Below are positions 239 to 7,233 of a DNA stretch of 7,233 bases, one piece after another (within the stretch, counting starts at the first letter, position 1; each line of letters starts with the position of its first letter). The stretch is from NCBI GenBank assembly GCA_016932955.1, contig JAFGBV010000274.1, forward strand, positions 1 to 7,233, read 5' to 3'. A program made the translations under genes and the position numbers. The notes below the pieces were generated by a model. It ran no database searches. It was not told where the DNA came from and saw only the letters and a list, made by a program, of their open reading frames with translations. The stretch comes from Anaerolineales bacterium. Its GTDB lineage: Bacteria; Chloroflexota; Anaerolineae; Anaerolineales; UBA4823.

Positions 239-979
239 TCAACTTACCAGGCTCTTGGCAGCCATCGCCGCACCGACGATCCCGGCGTTGTTGCCCATTT
301 CGGCAGTTACAGCCGGAGTGCGCAAATTCAGCAAAGGCATGAAGCGTTCTGCTTTTTTAACTGCCCCGCCGCCCAGGATGAACAGGTCGGGCCAGAATAA
401 TCGCTCCAGCGTTCCCAGGTAGCGGTCGAAGCGGGTTGCCCATTTCTCCCAAGATAGTTTTTCCCGTTGGCGGGCAGCATCGGAGGCAGTCAGCTCCGCA
501 TCCTGCCCGCCAATTTCTATATGTCCCAACTCTGTGTTGGGCACCAATATACCGTCGATAAAGAGCGCCGTGCCCAGTCCGGTGCCGATCGTCACCATCA
601 TGACCACGCCCCGTTTATTCTTGCCAGCGCCGAAGCTCACTTCTGCCAGCCCGGCAGCGTCGGCGTCATTGACGACCACGACCCCGCAGCCGGTCGCCTG
701 GCTGAACAGGTGCGCAGCGTTCAATCCGATCCACTGTTTATGCACATTTGCCGCGGTGAGCGTCACCCCTCTGCGCACTACTCCCGGAAACCCACAACCG
801 ATTGCGCCTTTCCATTCGAACTGTCTGGCGAGTTGCGCCACGACTGCAGCCACCGCATGAGGCTTAGCCGGGCTGGGAGTGGGAATACGCAGCCTTTCGG
901 TCTGCATAACGCCGCTGGAAATATCCACCAGTGCACCTTTGATACCGGTGCCGCCGATGTCGATGCCTAAAATCCGCAT
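239..979 (-). CDS. ppgK: Polyphosphate glucokinase (ROK family)
   Basis: Probable cytoplasmic polyphosphate glucokinase, 246 residues. Family members phosphorylate glucose to glucose-6-phosphate using inorganic polyphosphate (often also ATP), feeding glycolysis. Seen in the sequence: phosphate-1 loop DIGGTGIKG (residues 7-15), GFPGVV (63-68), the NVHKQWIG segment typical of PPGK (78-85), the sugar-binding/catalytic-Asp motif VVNDADAAG (102-110), the adenosine/phosphate loop [11 protein letters not shown] (129-139) and ELGHIEIGG (150-158). The Cys-rich zinc motif of ROK sugar kinases and repressors is absent and there is no N-terminal helix-turn-helix, as expected for PPGK and not for a ROK repressor. 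Length is close to actinobacterial PPGK (about 250-270). The ATG at 979 is preceded by AGGAGAGA, a good ribosome site. It lies 22 bases downstream of the exported-protein gene, so the two are probably cotranscribed. Preference for polyphosphate over ATP is inferred from family resemblance. Confidence 0.88.
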
Positions 980-2300: not shown

Positions 2301-4016
2301 TTACTTATCCTTATCTTTGACCTTTTCTGTCTTGGTCGGTTTTGCTTCCTTTACCTTTTCCGTAGGCGTCGGTGCTTGGTCTTCCAATTGTTGCTTTATT
2401 TCGCCCCATCCCATTCCGGCGCTGTACATAGCGAAAATTTCGCTCACGGGCACATCGTACTCCTGGCTCAGGCTGTATGCCAGCTCGATTTCTCCAAAGC
2501 CAAAGCCCTGGCAGAACCAGCTCATGATCTCTTCGTACGGCACCCCGAATCTTTCTGCCAGCGTCATCCCGGTTGGGTGTATCGCATCTCCTGAGCAATA
2601 ATCCTCGTTCGAAGGTGTTGGCGTAGCGATTACTTCTGGCGGCAGTGTCGCTTCAGGCGTGGGCGTGGATGTCGGAGTGAGGCTGTGGGTGGGGGTGGGA
2701 GTAGGAGTAGCCTCTGGTAATGGAGTGAGCGTTGGTTCTTCTTTTTCTTCACCAACATCATCTTCTTCACCATGCGGGCGGATGTGGACTGCCAGGTATT
2801 GCCCATCATCCTGGACGCTGAAGTCCACTTTAACCGTGTCTCCGATCTCCATGATTCCCGTTAGTTTCGTGTTGGCATCGATTAGCAATGAAGTTCCACC
2901 GACCTGCCAGATGGTTTCCCCAGTTGCCTCCAGGATGCCCGTGAAGCTGCCCTGGAATTGACCGCCGCTGGAGGTGAGCAGGTCTGCCCACCACTGCCCG
3001 GTTTCATCAATATGCCCGGCTGCTCGCGCCATTTCTCCAATGGCGGGCTTTCCCTGCACCAGCAAATCTTCCGTTATATTCATCTGAATATCGCCGATGA
3101 CTAGCGTGTCCTCATCCCAGGCGTTCAATATACCTTTGATCTGGAAGTCATATGCAGCAGGGTCATCGGGAGCCATGCCGGGCTGGGTAATTGTTGCCTG
3201 ACCGGTTTCGAGCAACACAGTTTCGCCAGCCGATTCCACCCACACACTGCCTTCGTTCACCGCGAACAGGGCACTTCCACTCGCCTGGTTAACCGTGACA
3301 CCAAAGTTTGTGCCTGTTACACTGGCAGTGCCAGAGGGGGTTTGAACTTGGTACAGGCTGTCGCCTGTTTTGAATGGAATAACATCGTGCAGCGTGTCTC
3401 CGGCGTGCTGGAGAAGCACGGCAACCATTTTCCCGTTCCAACCGCGCCTAACTTCTAGCAGACTCAGGTCGGTCTGCGCACCAAGGACGATTTGACTGCC
3501 GTCAGGAAGGCGCAGGGAAGCTGCGCCATCCGTCGAGGTGCGGATGCGCTCACCCTCGCGCACCCGCTCGCCCGACTGGATGGTTTGCCAGCGTTCTGGT
3601 TGATCTTGAGATAATACCTGTAGTACGCCAGCGGCTTCGACCACCTTGACCGTCGTCCAATTATGTAAAGTAATTGCCGCAAATGAGCCCGCTGCGGCGA
3701 TAACCATGAATGCCATTACCAATATGATTGCGCCGACCAGCCCCCCACTAAGTGCCCATCCCTTTGCGGGCCATTTCCAACCCGTCCGGCGGGGGGCAAA
3801 AATCTCCCGCGCCGCTTTCAACACCTTCTGTTGCTGCCGAGCAGCCTGTGCAGGTGAAGGCTCGGGATGTTGTATATGCTGAATTTGTGAAACTAGTTGT
3901 AGAAGGGGGCTATGTTCCTGGGCTTCGTCAGGCAATCCCTGCAAGATGGACTCCAGGTCCTGCCCGCTTTCCAGGGCATTCAGCAGATCCTGTAGTTCAT
4001 TGTCAGGGTTTCGCAT
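2301..4016 (-). CDS. FecR-domain single-pass membrane protein with DUF5666-like repeats, probable anti-sigma/sensor
   Basis: A 571-residue protein encoded directly after an ECF sigma factor and overlapping it by 14 bases. It is probably the membrane partner that controls that sigma factor. Residues 1-85 are a cytoplasmic helical region with a pattern (ALESGQDLESILQGLPDEA, PSPAQAARQQQ) typical of Chloroflexota anti-sigma-like proteins. Residues 91-117 form one membrane helix. Residues 125-275 are a FecR-like beta domain (GERVREGERIRT, LRLPDGSQIVL, TPSGTASVTGTNFGV, NEGSVWVE). Residues 290-347 and 356-412 are two DUF5666-like beta repeats. Residues 425-469 are an acidic then Pro/Thr-rich linker. 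Residues 486-545 hold two 30-residue repeats, and the end is a Lys-rich tail with TEKVK twice. The outer part is expected outside the membrane. The ATG at 4016 has GGAG 8 bases upstream. No TonB receptor gene is nearby, unlike classical FecIR systems. The signal sensed is unknown. Confidence 0.8.
   Translation of the reverse strand: MRNPDNELQDLLNALESGQDLESILQGLPDEAQEHSPLLQLVSQIQHIQHPEPSPAQAARQQQKVLKAAREIFAPRRTGWKWPAKGWALSGGLVGAIILVMAFMVIAAAGSFAAITLHNWTTVKVVEAAGVLQVLSQDQPERWQTIQSGERVREGERIRTSTDGAASLRLPDGSQIVLGAQTDLSLLEVRRGWNGKMVAVLLQHAGDTLHDVIPFKTGDSLYQVQTPSGTASVTGTNFGVTVNQASGSALFAVNEGSVWVESAGETVLLETGQATITQPGMAPDDPAAYDFQIKGILNAWDEDTLVIGDIQMNITEDLLVQGKPAIGEMARAAGHIDETGQWWADLLTSSGGQFQGSFTGILEATGETIWQVGGTSLLIDANTKLTGIMEIGDTVKVDFSVQDDGQYLAVHIRPHGEEDDVGEEKEEPTLTPLPEATPTPTPTHSLTPTSTPTPEATLPPEVIATPTPSNEDYCSGDAIHPTGMTLAERFGVPYEEIMSWFCQGFGFGEIELAYSLSQEYDVPVSEIFAMYSAGMGWGEIKQQLEDQAPTPTEKVKEAKPTKTEKVKDKDK
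2382..2561 (-). repeat. Two 30-residue repeats at the C-terminus of the FecR-type protein
   Basis: Residues 486-515 and 516-545 align without gaps at a 30-residue period. Matching positions include F490/Y520, V492/V522, P493/P523, E496/E526, I497/I527, G504/G534, G506/G536, G508/G538, E509/E539 and I510/I540. The core is aromatic-x-V-P-x-x-E-I, then G-x-G-aromatic-G-E-I. Each unit looks like two short helices with a Gly-rich turn. The domain lies outside the membrane, past the Pro/Thr linker, and may bind a ligand or cell-wall component. Confidence 0.75.
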
Positions 4017-4581
4017 TCGACGTGCTCCGATCCTCTAAAATTTGGCGAAGTGCGATCAATCCGCGGCGCTGCAATCCTTTGACTGCATCCTCACTGCATT
4101 TCAGCGCCAGGGCAGCCTCTTCGATGGAATGCCTTTGGATGAAACGCAGTATCAGCACTTCGCGTTGTGCCTGATTCAATTGAGCGAGGGCTCTTTGCAA
4201 GCTTTGGTTGTTCAACTGGCGTTCGACGGCTTCAGGGGGTTCTTCGCTATCGGCAGCCAGGTTTTCCGTCAAAGGCAAGCTTGTCTTGCCTTTCTCTTTC
4301 CGGTGGTAGTCAATCGCAATATTGTGAGCGATCTGATATAACCAGGCCTGGAAAGAGCCTCGTGGTTGGAAGGATGGCAACGCTCGTAACATACGAATGA
4401 AGACCTCTGAAGTCAGATCCTCAGCAACCTGTGCATCCCCCACATGGTAAAACAAGTAGCGAAAAACATCTGTTCGGTGGCGCAAATAGAGGTCGCGAAT
4501 AGCTACCTCATCCCCTTTTTGCGCTCGTACTACTTGCTCAATTGTTGTGGAAGATTCGGACCGGTTGTCGGTTACCATCAC
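4003..4581 (-). CDS. ECF-family RNA polymerase sigma factor (sigma-70 family)
   Basis: A 192-residue ECF sigma factor directing RNA polymerase to a specific promoter set, probably held inactive by the FecR-type membrane protein encoded next. Region 2 spans about residues 27-95: LYLRHRTDVFRYL, AEDLTSEVFIRML (2.2, core binding), and FQAWLYQIAHNIAIDYHRK (2.3-2.4, -10 recognition). An acidic linker (104-122) follows. Region 4 spans about 127-183: LNQAQREVLILRF, then the helix-turn-helix with SIEEAALALKCSEDAVKGL and QRRGLIALR. There is no region 1.1 or 3, as expected for ECF. The start is ambiguous, since GTG (4581) and ATG (4578) are consecutive in frame and only a weak AGAAG precedes them. The 14-base overlap with the next gene suggests translational coupling. 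No classical ECF promoter (GGAAC/CGTC) was found upstream, so autoregulation is not shown by the sequence. Confidence 0.92.
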   Translation of the reverse strand: MMVTDNRSESSTTIEQVVRAQKGDEVAIRDLYLRHRTDVFRYLFYHVGDAQVAEDLTSEVFIRMLRALPSFQPRGSFQAWLYQIAHNIAIDYHRKEKGKTSLPLTENLAADSEEPPEAVERQLNNQSLQRALAQLNQAQREVLILRFIQRHSIEEAALALKCSEDAVKGLQRRGLIALRQILEDRSTSNAKP

Positions 4582-4634
4582 TTCTGACCATATTAACGGA
4601 ATGACCTGGCAAAAGGAGTCGTATGACCTTCCTA

Positions 4635-4640
4635 ATTATA
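4635..4640 (-). promoter_or_regulatory. -10 element for the ECF/FecR unit
   Basis: The minus strand reads TATAAT (6 of 6) within an AT-rich run, giving a transcript start near 4628 and a leader of about 47 bases. No good -35 lies 16-18 bases upstream (TAATTT at 17). The promoter may be weak, activator-dependent or read by another sigma factor. Confidence 0.45.
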
Positions 4641-4690
4641 TATGCAAAACGCCTTACAAATTAGTCGATTTAATCTCTATCAGCACATTT

Positions 4691-4719
4691 TTGCCAGCCA
4701 GACTAAAAGGCTGTATAAT
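4691..4719 (+). promoter_or_regulatory. Sigma-70-type promoter for the IleRS-like gene
   Basis: TTGCCA (4691-4696, 5 of 6 to TTGACA), a 17-base spacer, then TATAAT (4714-4719, 6 of 6). Transcription would start near 4726, leaving a leader of about 45 bases before ATG 4771. That is too short for a T-box riboswitch. The spacer contains a small dyad (CAGCC-N9-GGCTG, 4695-4713). This is the best promoter in the window and implies that the gene is expressed. Confidence 0.75.
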
Positions 4720-4770
4720 TTTGTTTTGGTTGCCAGGTGCTGTCATAGTTTTCGAAAGTATGGTGCCGTG

Positions 4771-7233
4771 ATGTTCAAACCTGTTGCGGATCGCATCAAT
4801 GTAACTTTGCTTGAAGAGGAAGCCGCGCGTATTTGGAAAACACAGCGGGTCTACCAAAAGCTACGCCTTTTACGCCAGGACGAGCCGGCCTTTCATATTT
4901 ACCAATGCCCTGCTGTGACCAGCGGCAAGCCCGGTTTGCAAGACACCTTGGCGAGCGTGCACCAGGATTTCTGGTCGCGCTATAAGGCCATGCGAGGGTT
5001 GTGCGTAATACGGCACAGCGGCTGGAATACGCACGGTCTGCCGGTTGAGCTTCAAGCCGAGAGCCGGCTGGGGATTACCGGAAAAGGACAGGCCGAGAAG
5101 TATGGGATAGCGCGCTTCAACGATTATTGCCAGCAGTTAGCCCTGGATTCCGTCCAAAGTCGAGAGAACCTGAGCGAGCGCCTGAATGGCAGGGAAGAGA
5201 CGGAACCAGCTCCAACCAGCCATGACGAGCGCTCTGTTGAAGCCGTGTGGGGTCTGTTCAAGCAAGCCTGGGAGAGGGGTTTGGTATATCAGGACGAAGG
5301 CGTCATGCCCTATTGCCCCCATTGTGGCACTGTGCTGGCTGATTATGAAATCGTTCGACAGGCTGAGCCGGATGGATCGGCGGCGGCCTATGTTCGCTTA
5401 CCCCTCTTAGAAGACCCGGGTACATCCATCCTGGCCTGGGTTGGGCATGCCTGGAGCTTGCCGGGCAATGTTGCCGCTGCAGTCAACTCTGATGCGGAAT
5501 ACGTCATCATTGAGCATGATTTGCCCGCCAGCGAGGCTGGTGGAGAGGGTGGAATGGAAAAACTGATCATCGCCAGGGCTCTGGTTGACCAGGTCTTCGG
5601 TGATGCGGATGTGCGCGTGTACGAGACCTTCAAGGGGAGCAAGCTGAAAGGTCTGAAATATAGGCCTCTGTTCCAGTTCCTGCTGGTTGATAAACCAGCT
5701 TACCGGGTGATCCTGGATGATTTTTCAGTTGCCGGGCCGGGGGGCGGAATCGTGCTGATTACTCCAGCCTTTGATGCCCATCACCTCCAATTGGCCAGAC
5801 AGAATGACTTGCCAATGCTGACGCCCATCGGCAAGGATGGCACATTCATTTCCGAGATGCGCCCCTGGCGGGGAATGTTTTTTAAGGATGCCGAGGCTTA
5901 TATCCAGCAAGACTTGCAAGAGCGAGGCCTGCTGTACCGTGCCGAGCGGCATGACCAAAGTATTGCTCTCTGCCGGGGCTGCAACTCGCCTTTACTGCCG
6001 TATGTTCGTCAGGTCTGGTACCTGCGTGCCCAGGACGGGGATTGGTTGTTGGGGCGAGATCGTTTGTGGGGTACGCCGCTGCCAATCTGGCAGTGCATCC
6101 AATGCGGTCACCGGCTTGCTATCGGCTCATTGGAGGAATTATCACACCTGGCAGGCCGGAACCTGGCGGGCATGGATATACATCGCCCAATGGTGGATGA
6201 GGTGGCTTTTGCCTGCCCGCGCTGTGACGGATTGATGCGCCGCCTGCCGCAGGTATTAGACGCCGGGTTGGATGCTGCAGCCTTGTCACTGCTGCAATCG
6301 TCCGGCGAGGCAGAACCGGCCTATCCGGCAGATCTCGTTTGTGAGTCGGTCGAGCAGTCGAAAGCCTGGTTCAACGCCCTTCATATCCTGAGCAGCCTCT
6401 TCTGGGAGGGCGCGCCTTATCGACATTTGATCAGCCTGCCCATATTGATTGGAGATGAGGAAAACATCGCCGCCAACCATCACCAGCCGCTCGGCGACCC
6501 CTGGGATATCATCCATGATCATGGTGCGGATGCCTTACGCTGGGTTTTTCTGTCTGCCTGTTCGTCTGGCGACCAGGCCAGGTTTTCGAATGAGCTGCTT
6601 TTTGCTGCCAGGAATGATTTCGTCCTTCCGCTATGGGACACTTACGCCATGCTGGTCAACAGTGCAATTCAGGCAGGCTGGAGCCCCAATCCAACTGATG
6701 TTCCTTCCCAGGGCGATCTAGATCCCCTCGACCGCTGGCTTTCTTCCCGCCTGAGCCTGCTTGTCAGTGAAATGACCACTGCGCTCGAGGATTATGATAG
6801 TTTGCGCGCGTGCAGCCTTCTCCGGGTGTTTGTCACCGATCTATCAGGCTGGTATGTGCCGCTCTTGCGGCGGCGTTTTGTTGAAAATTCAGCTGCCGAG
6901 CACCGCAGCGCAGCCTTTTCATCCCTTTACCAGGCTCTCGTTACGCTTAGCCAATTGCTGGCACCTTTTCTCCCCTTCATCGCGGACGAGATTTATCAAA
7001 AGCTTGTACGCTCGTTTGATCTCTCAGCGCGTTCCTCGGTGCACCTGACCGATTGGCCCGTGATAGACAATGCGGCGATCGACCTCGAACTTAACCGCAG
7101 GATGGCGCTCTTACAAAGACTTGCCTCCCAGGGAAAGTCTGCCCGGCAAGCCGCCGGCATTGCTCTACACCAGCCGCTGGCAGGGGCGGTGATTGCGCTC
7201 GACAGCCAGGAGGAAGCCACCGCACTGCACCCC
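4771..7233 (+). CDS. Isoleucyl-tRNA-synthetase-like protein with replaced catalytic and editing motifs, 3' end outside window
   Basis: One open frame of 821 codons, without a stop at the window edge. The N-terminus MFKPVADRI matches IleRS starts, so ATG 4771 is preferred over the adjacent in-frame GTG 4768; the ribosome site is weak. The scaffold is IleRS of the archaeal/eukaryote-like type: RYKAMRG (70-76), GWNTHGLPVE (84-93), CP1 editing region (about 176-425), LWGTPLPIW (432-440), zinc knuckles C182/C185, C401/C404, C442/C445 and C482/C485, GADALRW (585-591), and an anticodon-binding domain from about 650 with DLSGWYV (690-696) and RRRF (700-703). Active-site signatures are replaced at gapless positions: HIGH by GLQD (55-58), KMSKS by IAANH (566-570), GWD by GWN (86), and WFDSG by GLDAA (499-503). 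Editing TTTP becomes VGHA (224-227) and the editing Asp pair His337-His338. By established class I synthetase mechanism it should not make aminoacyl-adenylate. A role in tRNA or protein binding is inferred; a normal ileS should exist elsewhere. About 200 C-terminal residues are missing. Confidence 0.88.
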   Translation, partial: MFKPVADRINVTLLEEEAARIWKTQRVYQKLRLLRQDEPAFHIYQCPAVTSGKPGLQDTLASVHQDFWSRYKAMRGLCVIRHSGWNTHGLPVELQAESRLGITGKGQAEKYGIARFNDYCQQLALDSVQSRENLSERLNGREETEPAPTSHDERSVEAVWGLFKQAWERGLVYQDEGVMPYCPHCGTVLADYEIVRQAEPDGSAAAYVRLPLLEDPGTSILAWVGHAWSLPGNVAAAVNSDAEYVIIEHDLPASEAGGEGGMEKLIIARALVDQVFGDADVRVYETFKGSKLKGLKYRPLFQFLLVDKPAYRVILDDFSVAGPGGGIVLITPAFDAHHLQLARQNDLPMLTPIGKDGTFISEMRPWRGMFFKDAEAYIQQDLQERGLLYRAERHDQSIALCRGCNSPLLPYVRQVWYLRAQDGDWLLGRDRLWGTPLPIWQCIQCGHRLAIGSLEELSHLAGRNLAGMDIHRPMVDEVAFACPRCDGLMRRLPQVLDAGLDAAALSLLQSSGEAEPAYPADLVCESVEQSKAWFNALHILSSLFWEGAPYRHLISLPILIGDEENIAANHHQPLGDPWDIIHDHGADALRWVFLSACSSGDQARFSNELLFAARNDFVLPLWDTYAMLVNSAIQAGWSPNPTDVPSQGDLDPLDRWLSSRLSLLVSEMTTALEDYDSLRACSLLRVFVTDLSGWYVPLLRRRFVENSAAEHRSAAFSSLYQALVTLSQLLAPFLPFIADEIYQKLVRSFDLSARSSVHLTDWPVIDNAAIDLELNRRMALLQRLASQGKSARQAAGIALHQPLAGAVIALDSQEEATALHP

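Follow-up and report, generated by a model that had tools for sequence, protein, structure and literature searches.

A catalytically dead-looking isoleucyl-tRNA synthetase, probably a displaced native enzyme, in Anaerolineales

Repurposed or dead relatives of aminoacyl-tRNA synthetases are established, with HisZ, LeuRS-I, and SbzA as examples; among these, only SbzA is a relative of isoleucyl-tRNA synthetase (IleRS), and its ATP motifs are kept. HisZ is a class II protein. In the review PMC9437257, HisZ is presented as a paralogue of histidyl-tRNA synthetase (HisRS) that acts as the regulatory subunit of HisG, carries out no adenylation, and is retained in bacteria, and LeuRS-I of Sulfolobaceae as an additional leucyl-tRNA synthetase (LeuRS) that makes leucyl-adenylate and binds tRNA-Leu without charging it. 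SbzA appears in PMC6331615 as an IleRS-like transferase in an antibiotic gene cluster, with slightly changed ATP motifs, and PMC10485003 gives GXHH as a working variant motif of type 2 IleRS (IleRS2). No description of a dead full-length IleRS was found in the open-access literature of PubMed Central (PMC), subscription papers being outside that scope. Here we describe P0001, a catalytically dead-looking IleRS encoded from position 4771 to the end of a 7,233-nucleotide stretch of Anaerolineales DNA (contig JAFGBV010000274.1, forward strand), which we call the window.

P0001 belongs to one of two IleRS types discussed below, type B; we refer to its catalytically dead-looking members as dead B and to the other type as type A. 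Like IleRS2 (PMC10485003), the active relatives at the dead B locus have GVHH and KMSKS, and the predicted structure of dead B is a confident IleRS fold that matches P. megaterium IleRS2 (8c8u, 8c8v, 8c8w, 8c9d), but the window protein lacks both catalytic His residues, KMSKS, DVWFDSG, and the editing residues, and it falls below the NCBIfam ileS cut-off. With HisZ (PMC9437257), dead B shares a synthetase origin, the lack of adenylation, and retention in bacteria; the partner of HisZ is known, whereas dead B is a nearly complete class I protein that includes CP1 and an anticodon domain, has a candidate partner only, and would have arisen by displacement of the native enzyme. LeuRS-I likewise belongs to class Ia, has a disrupted CP1, and does not charge tRNA, but by that account it still forms leucyl-adenylate, whereas the activation signatures of dead B are lost. 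SbzA (PMC6331615) is homologous to IleRS, has taken on a different job, and occurs beside another IleRS in its genome; unlike dead B, it retains the ATP motifs and sits in an antibiotic gene cluster. Our preferred reading, to which we assign a probability of about 0.62, is that a native ileS was displaced by type A, died catalytically, and has been retained as a folded non-catalytic scaffold or regulatory protein.

Lost signatures and retained fold

The first-pass annotation of the window had taken the gene for a near full-length IleRS with an open frame of 821 codons, and this holds. The frame runs without a stop from the ATG at 4771 (another in-frame ATG lies at 4642) to the window end, up to which its intactness is known, the part past 7233 being outside the data. 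P0001 matches Pfam tRNA-synt_1 (residues 20-600) and Anticodon_1 (residues 654-803) and has the class Ia IleRS architecture, its Rossmann halves, CP1, and anticodon domain being arranged as in IleRS. Because eight orthologues measure 958-968 aa, we estimate that ∼140 C-terminal residues lie beyond the window. Against TIGR00392 (ileS), the 3'-truncated sequence scores 488.6 bits, under the curated cut-off of 621.4.

Relative to active relatives, GVHH has become GLQD, KMSKS has become IAANH, DVWFDSG has become DAGLDAA, and TTTPWT has become VGHAWS. The editing residues H323 and D332 are replaced by Leu and His, and a 31-column deletion takes out GRFGNWL. The active relatives carry GVHH, not HIGH, at the first signature, so the Gly of GLQD is inherited and the real loss is that of the two His residues.

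A protein search with P0001 returned eight full-length relatives (P0002-P0009, 958-968 aa, 54-66% identity; P0004 is 63% identical) and P0010 (1004 aa, 46%), followed by matches of 41-44% identity, some of which bear the name isoleucyl-tRNA synthetase. P0002 comes from Chloroflexi bacterium RBG_19FT_COMBO_56_12, where it is annotated as a hypothetical protein. With copies from six genomes (G016, G240, G183, G130, G193, and G022), the set of catalytically dead-looking sequences comes to 16: the window protein, nine database proteins, and the six genome copies. Both catalytic His residues of GXHH are present in none of the 16, and a single one is left in four, at the third position in P0005 and G022_B and at the fourth in P0010 and G130_B. 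KMSKS and the editing motif TTTPWT are likewise each found in 0/16. The editing His and Asp occur together only in G183_B, the Asp alone in P0003, P0005, P0009, and P0010, and the His alone in G130_B; P0010 still has DAWFDSG. Eight further dead sequences score under the TIGR00392 cut-off (P0002 493.2, P0008 480.1, P0010 616.8, which is close, G183 547.1, G240 356.3, G016 340.3, G193 453.0, and G022 407.2), and type A of G016, as a control, scores 658.3, over it. Since the eight relatives at 54-66% identity have largely identical losses, those of P0001 are not due to chance. Whether orthologues share the altered motifs had been posed as a check at first pass. Orthologues do exist; they agree only loosely at GLQD (identical in P0001 and P0002, with GLQV, DLQD, DLHD, TLQE, NLQD, GLQE, and GLPF in P0003-P0009), and IAANH is not shared. 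These sequences make it well supported that dead B proteins are catalytically dead, apparently in both the synthetic and the editing reactions.

Retention was scored over the dead sequences at positions ≥95% conserved in 16 active B sequences. Cys is retained at 99.3% (nine positions), and the eight Cys of four C-x2-C pairs, which we presume to be zinc binders as in IleRS, are each present in 16/16; the corresponding fractions are 0.76 for Trp, 0.55 for hydrophobic residues, 0.51 for Lys/Arg, 0.38 for Ser/Thr, and 0.36 for His. CP1 retains 0.85 of its hydrophobic residues and 0.96 of its Gly but 0.27 of its Ser/Thr and 0.15 of its His, and the anticodon domain keeps 0.94 of its Trp. The earlier claim that the signatures are gone and the scaffold kept thus stands. 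Active A and active B have 183 conserved positions in common, of which 89 are retained in ≥86% of 15 dead sequences (without G022) and 56 in less than half. In the window clade the catalytic halves have diverged 2.1-fold and 2.0-fold as compared with active B, CP1 1.4-fold, and the anticodon domain 1.5-fold, which marks the active-site halves as the most relaxed parts; for the C-terminal part the figure is 1.0-fold in the window clade and 1.5-fold over all dead sequences. Net charge gave no clear separation of dead from active proteins.

The number of dead B genes is a lower bound. An order-wide search with P0026 found matches in 375 of 400 genomes, of which 60 were followed and judged by identity and frame length; the one suspect among these that was read by residue, G022, is dead. 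Dead B is undercounted because this listing was covered only in part. Searches with P0002 at tight thresholds gave one match in 400 genomes and none in 396; such thresholds miss matches that are split, since G240, G183, G130, G193, and G022 surfaced later. A profile search brought no additional close member among its best 120 (the scores drop from 1508 to 1213 bits), and a contig scan with words exact to the window protein found no close orthologue in the named genomes, the best match being 40%. The name RBG_19FT_COMBO_56_12 was not among the best 120 in a type A look-up, where most proteins are nameless. All 215 records from a plasmid search were at <60% identity, and PADLOC, used for a link to defence, gave no match among five proteins.

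A second IleRS and the old ileS locus

In the bacterial family of G016, type A is ∼1,140 aa long with MG(V/A)HH and MHKS where read, and type B ∼1,050 aa with GVHH and KMSKS (IMSKS in G188). A tally of 38 genomes, made by score and frame length with most lone A genes not read by residue and several at contig ends, gave A only in 20, two A in one, B only in seven, A with active B in three, A with dead B in five, and neither in two. With two genomes of the wider order included (G022 and G277), dead B occurs in six genomes and A is present in all six, the A of G130 being visible only in part, at a contig end. Active-motif B is found in four genomes with A and seven without, and dead B in six with A (Fisher p=0.017); the B genes read in A-less genomes keep the active motifs in 7/7.

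Dead B and active B have neighbours in common. A ROK kinase gene is common to the window, dead B of G016 and G240, and active B of G177. PadR-ModA-ModB lies near active B in G177, G219, and G231 and near dead B in G193, where A sits between ModB and dead B. RibD_C is found near the active pairs of G171 and G277 and the dead pairs of G183 and G130, NUDIX beside the dead B genes of G016 and G240 and the active ones of G243 and G202, and an unannotated 634-aa gene near dead B in G022, with part of the same gene near active B in G219. For the window itself, the locus is recognised by the neighbouring ROK gene and by a FecR-like stretch that also occurs in G022. Because these neighbours are common to dead and active B, we regard dead B as the original ileS, still at its ancestral position, and not a stray duplicate. 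The first-pass annotation had called the gene a paralogue; its relation to IleRS is borne out, and a displaced native ileS describes it better than an ordinary duplicate. In the tandem loci, A and dead B are 98 bp (G130), 110 bp (G193), and 218 bp (G183) apart; in G022 one weakly TPR-like gene lies between them, and in G016 and G240 they are on separate contigs.

A T-box leader (Rfam) lies directly 5' of the lone active B in six of seven genomes (G219, G177, G151, G231, G222, and G108, not G243) and 5' of A in 10/10 A loci scanned (G016, G240, G193, G183, G022, G171, G188, G277, G202, and the second copy of G116), the scan leaving out the first copy of G116 and the A of G130, which runs off its contig. 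In dead B genomes with a testable A, an isoleucine (AUC) specifier leader precedes A in 5/5. We note that 13/16 matches fall short of the Rfam gathering cut-off (93), at E-values ≤3.1e-10; in 15/16 the specifier region GAAAAUC is followed by the expected CCGGA, and G116 has GAAAAUC with a different continuation. A T-box was found 5' of stand-alone dead B in 0/3 cases (G016, G240, and the window, whose upstream region is shorter than the model), and none was found for the active B of G202, ∼7 kb behind A. Counting first or stand-alone genes, the leader accompanies 16/18 active genes and 0/3 dead ones (Fisher p=0.0075). The T-box leader thus appears to go with the charging gene, standing 5' of A or of a lone active B and not of a stand-alone dead B.

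In the gene trees the window protein clusters with active B, not A, and the dead sequences fall on one side (15 dead sequences, support 83/99; in a quick tree with 12 of the 16, Shimodaira-Hasegawa-like approximate likelihood ratio test (SH-aLRT) 99). Long branches meet in these trees, and the grouping of G183, G130, G171, and G277 expected from synteny is not rejected (approximately unbiased (AU) test, p=0.34). The type A genes of dead B genomes do not form one clade: four changes are counted, at least two of them forced by starred branches. B may perhaps have died several times independently. The altered stretch GLQ(E/D)AL...HQD is common to the dead B of G193 (L030:6671-9811) and most of the window clade (GLQDTL...HQD at 4933-4968 of the window); the two are not joined directly in the tree, and the stretch reflects either shared ancestry or convergence.

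In G202 (L037:2505-5989) type A is in two overlapping frames and B is intact, the reverse of dead B genomes and a possible sequencing error. The sole IleRS found in G231 (L045:5138-7690) is a type B with intact motifs that stops early, at 850 aa, within a 3.3 Mb contig; this is probably a sequence error, or else a truncated enzyme. G116 has two type A genes (L038:4889-8383 and L039:4682-8110), the second with its own T-box leader.

Probable retention without catalysis

On the preferred reading, the starting gene would be the native, vertically inherited ileS (type B, an IleRS2 with the GXHH motif) of a Chloroflexota lineage resembling Anaerolineae. A type A IleRS would have entered the lineage, coming to lie in several genomes directly 5' of B behind a T-box leader, and would have taken over tRNA-Ile charging; B could then have lost isoleucine and ATP activation together with editing and persisted as a folded protein. 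Displacement with catalytic death is well supported by the lost signatures, the coexistence with A in six genomes, the ancestral locus, the leader with the other gene, the open frames, the Cys residues, and the predicted fold. We infer the order of events, type A as the charger (also in the window's genome), the production of B as a protein, a job still under selection, and a role in binding. That role would most likely be non-catalytic, as a scaffold or regulatory partner, through CP1 and the cysteine (zinc-type) modules, which are the best candidates for the part of dead B still used; in the window clade the C-terminal part may perhaps also take part in binding. A retained protein with a new job, as first proposed, is likely. 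Tandem adjacency makes A one candidate partner, in the manner of HisZ, but A and dead B are on separate contigs in G016 and G240. That the old enzyme became a subunit binding or tuning the incoming IleRS or another enzyme, which would make a bacterial two-protein IleRS system and the first described on a dead IleRS, is a speculative extension that we consider rather unlikely.

The main rival, unlikely in our judgement yet to be taken seriously, is that dead B is a long-lived relic, redundant beside A, under strongly relaxed selection, heading to loss, and with no present job. Rates bear on this for members other than the window, with DNA of P0002-P0010 outside the comparison and synonymous rates (dS) saturated in most pairs. 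Several results weigh against the preferred reading. In three pairwise comparisons, dead B had a nonsynonymous rate (dN) 3.5- to 5.8-fold the value for A. In G016/G240, constraint is weak at best, because dead B has dN 0.61 against dS 1.07 (codon-position differences 0.43/0.41/0.54; A: dN 0.16, dS 0.63). B is dispensable, since 20/38 family genomes have A alone (21/38 have A without B); the C-terminal part retains 0.42 of conserved positions over all dead sequences; and 9/16 dead sequences come from protein databases, which list intact frames only. The strong divergence of the catalytic halves also suits a relic. Genome copies are the fairer test of intact frames, given that bias, and none of the six has a stop. 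Five were compared at 36-51% pairwise identity, for which neutral drift would give a mean of 14-29 stops; the sixth is G022. Neutral simulations to the observed identities (60 per case) gave a mean of 13-29 stops and a minimum of six, in line with the first-pass argument that random decay would bring stops. The universal paired Cys and the strong site-to-site rate variation (window clade alpha 1.10, log-likelihood gain 223; active B alpha 0.47; 195/811 columns invariant) also speak against a relic. So does G130/G183, with dead B dN 0.41, well under a saturated dS, and position differences 0.37/0.28/0.60 (A: dN 0.07, dS 2.27). The dN/dS check proposed at first pass is thus split, with one pair constrained and the other nearly relaxed.

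The remaining explanations are less probable. A tRNA-Ile binder that does not charge, serving as decoy, chaperone, or sensor of uncharged tRNA, would fit the retained fold and Trp of the anticodon domain, and LeuRS-I (PMC9437257) binds tRNA without charging. In that domain, however, Lys/Arg is retained at 0.34 (seven positions) against 0.66 for hydrophobic residues, and stand-alone dead B has no tRNA-sensing leader; tRNA binding, one of the jobs first suggested, is weakened accordingly and we think it improbable. An altered but active enzyme, for instance an SbzA-like transferase of isoleucine from Ile-tRNA, has a precedent in the new reaction of SbzA and could draw on the single His left in four dead sequences. 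Yet SbzA retains HIGH and KMSKS with slight changes (PMC6331615), the dead sequences have neither KMSKS nor both His, and the flanking genes, only some of them annotated, showed no recognisable biosynthetic cluster, so that we hold this very improbable. The genomes look like many-contig drafts, which would suit an assembly or binning artefact, but nine database clusters and six genomes, three of the six on contigs >50 kb, show like losses and common neighbours, which leaves an artefact scarcely credible.

If displacement and retention are the right account, a gene whose loss might be expected once an essential enzyme is displaced has been kept instead. Within a single bacterial family there are genomes with only the native enzyme, genomes with two active copies, genomes in which a dead copy is kept, and genomes that have lost it completely, the T-box marking the charging copy; the family would offer a natural experiment on the uses of a synthetase scaffold whose chemistry is gone. 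For annotation, searches by domain make dead B look like IleRS, and it should be left out when the IleRS of a cell is assigned.

Features of the window and minor observations

Table 1. Features of the window around the dead IleRS gene (positions in the 7,233-nucleotide stretch)
Feature	Position	Strand	Remark
Catalytically dead type B IleRS (P0001)	4771-7233	+	821 aa seen, 3' end beyond window
Sigma-70-like promoter TTGCCA-17-TATAAT	4691-4719	+	11/12 positions match; consensus match only
Intergenic region, 189 bp	4582-4770	+	no T-box leader found; shorter than 219-position model
GLQD, residues 55-58, at GVHH position of active relatives	4933-4944	+	
Cys182/Cys185 retained pair	5314-5325	+	each 16/16 in dead set
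CP1 (editing) domain, approximate bounds	5371-5973	+	core retained, editing residues lost
VGHAWS, residues 224-229, replacing editing motif TTTPWT	5440-5457	+	
Leu329 and His338 replacing editing-site His and Asp	5755-5784	+	
Cys401/Cys404 retained pair	5971-5982	+	
Site of 31-column deletion (GRFGNWL segment of active enzymes gone)	6034-6039	+	
Cys442/Cys445 retained pair	6094-6105	+	
Cys482/Cys485 retained pair	6214-6225	+	
DAGLDAA, residues 497-503, replacing DVWFDSG	6259-6279	+	
IAANH, residues 566-570, replacing KMSKS	6466-6480	+	loop 564-572 at predicted local distance difference test (pLDDT) <50 in model
Anticodon-binding domain (Pfam Anticodon_1)	6730-7179	+	fold retained, basic residues eroded
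Polyphosphate-glucose phosphotransferase (ROK)	239-979	-	syntenic marker: dead B G016, G240; active B G177
FecR/DUF5666 protein	2301-4016	-	C-terminal stretch related to one lying 5' of A and dead B in G022 (L046)
ECF sigma factor, divergent from dead IleRS	4003-4581	-	

The near-consensus promoter noted at first pass is there, as a consensus match; the shuffled 501-base region around it yields 0.8 sites of ≥9/12. Directly 3' of two dead IleRS genes, with ends touching or overlapping, is a gene with two NUDIX stretches (L028:5528-6487 and L033:5560-6537), a relative of which follows the active B of G243. c-di-GMP-I riboswitches occur near the pair of A and dead B in G183 and G130 (L031:1038-1113, L031:3171-3251, and L032:671-752). 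The C-terminal end of the window's FecR/DUF5666 protein contains Cys and reads MSWFCQGFGFGEIELAYSL; its relative at L046 in G022 is 42% identical over 76 residues.
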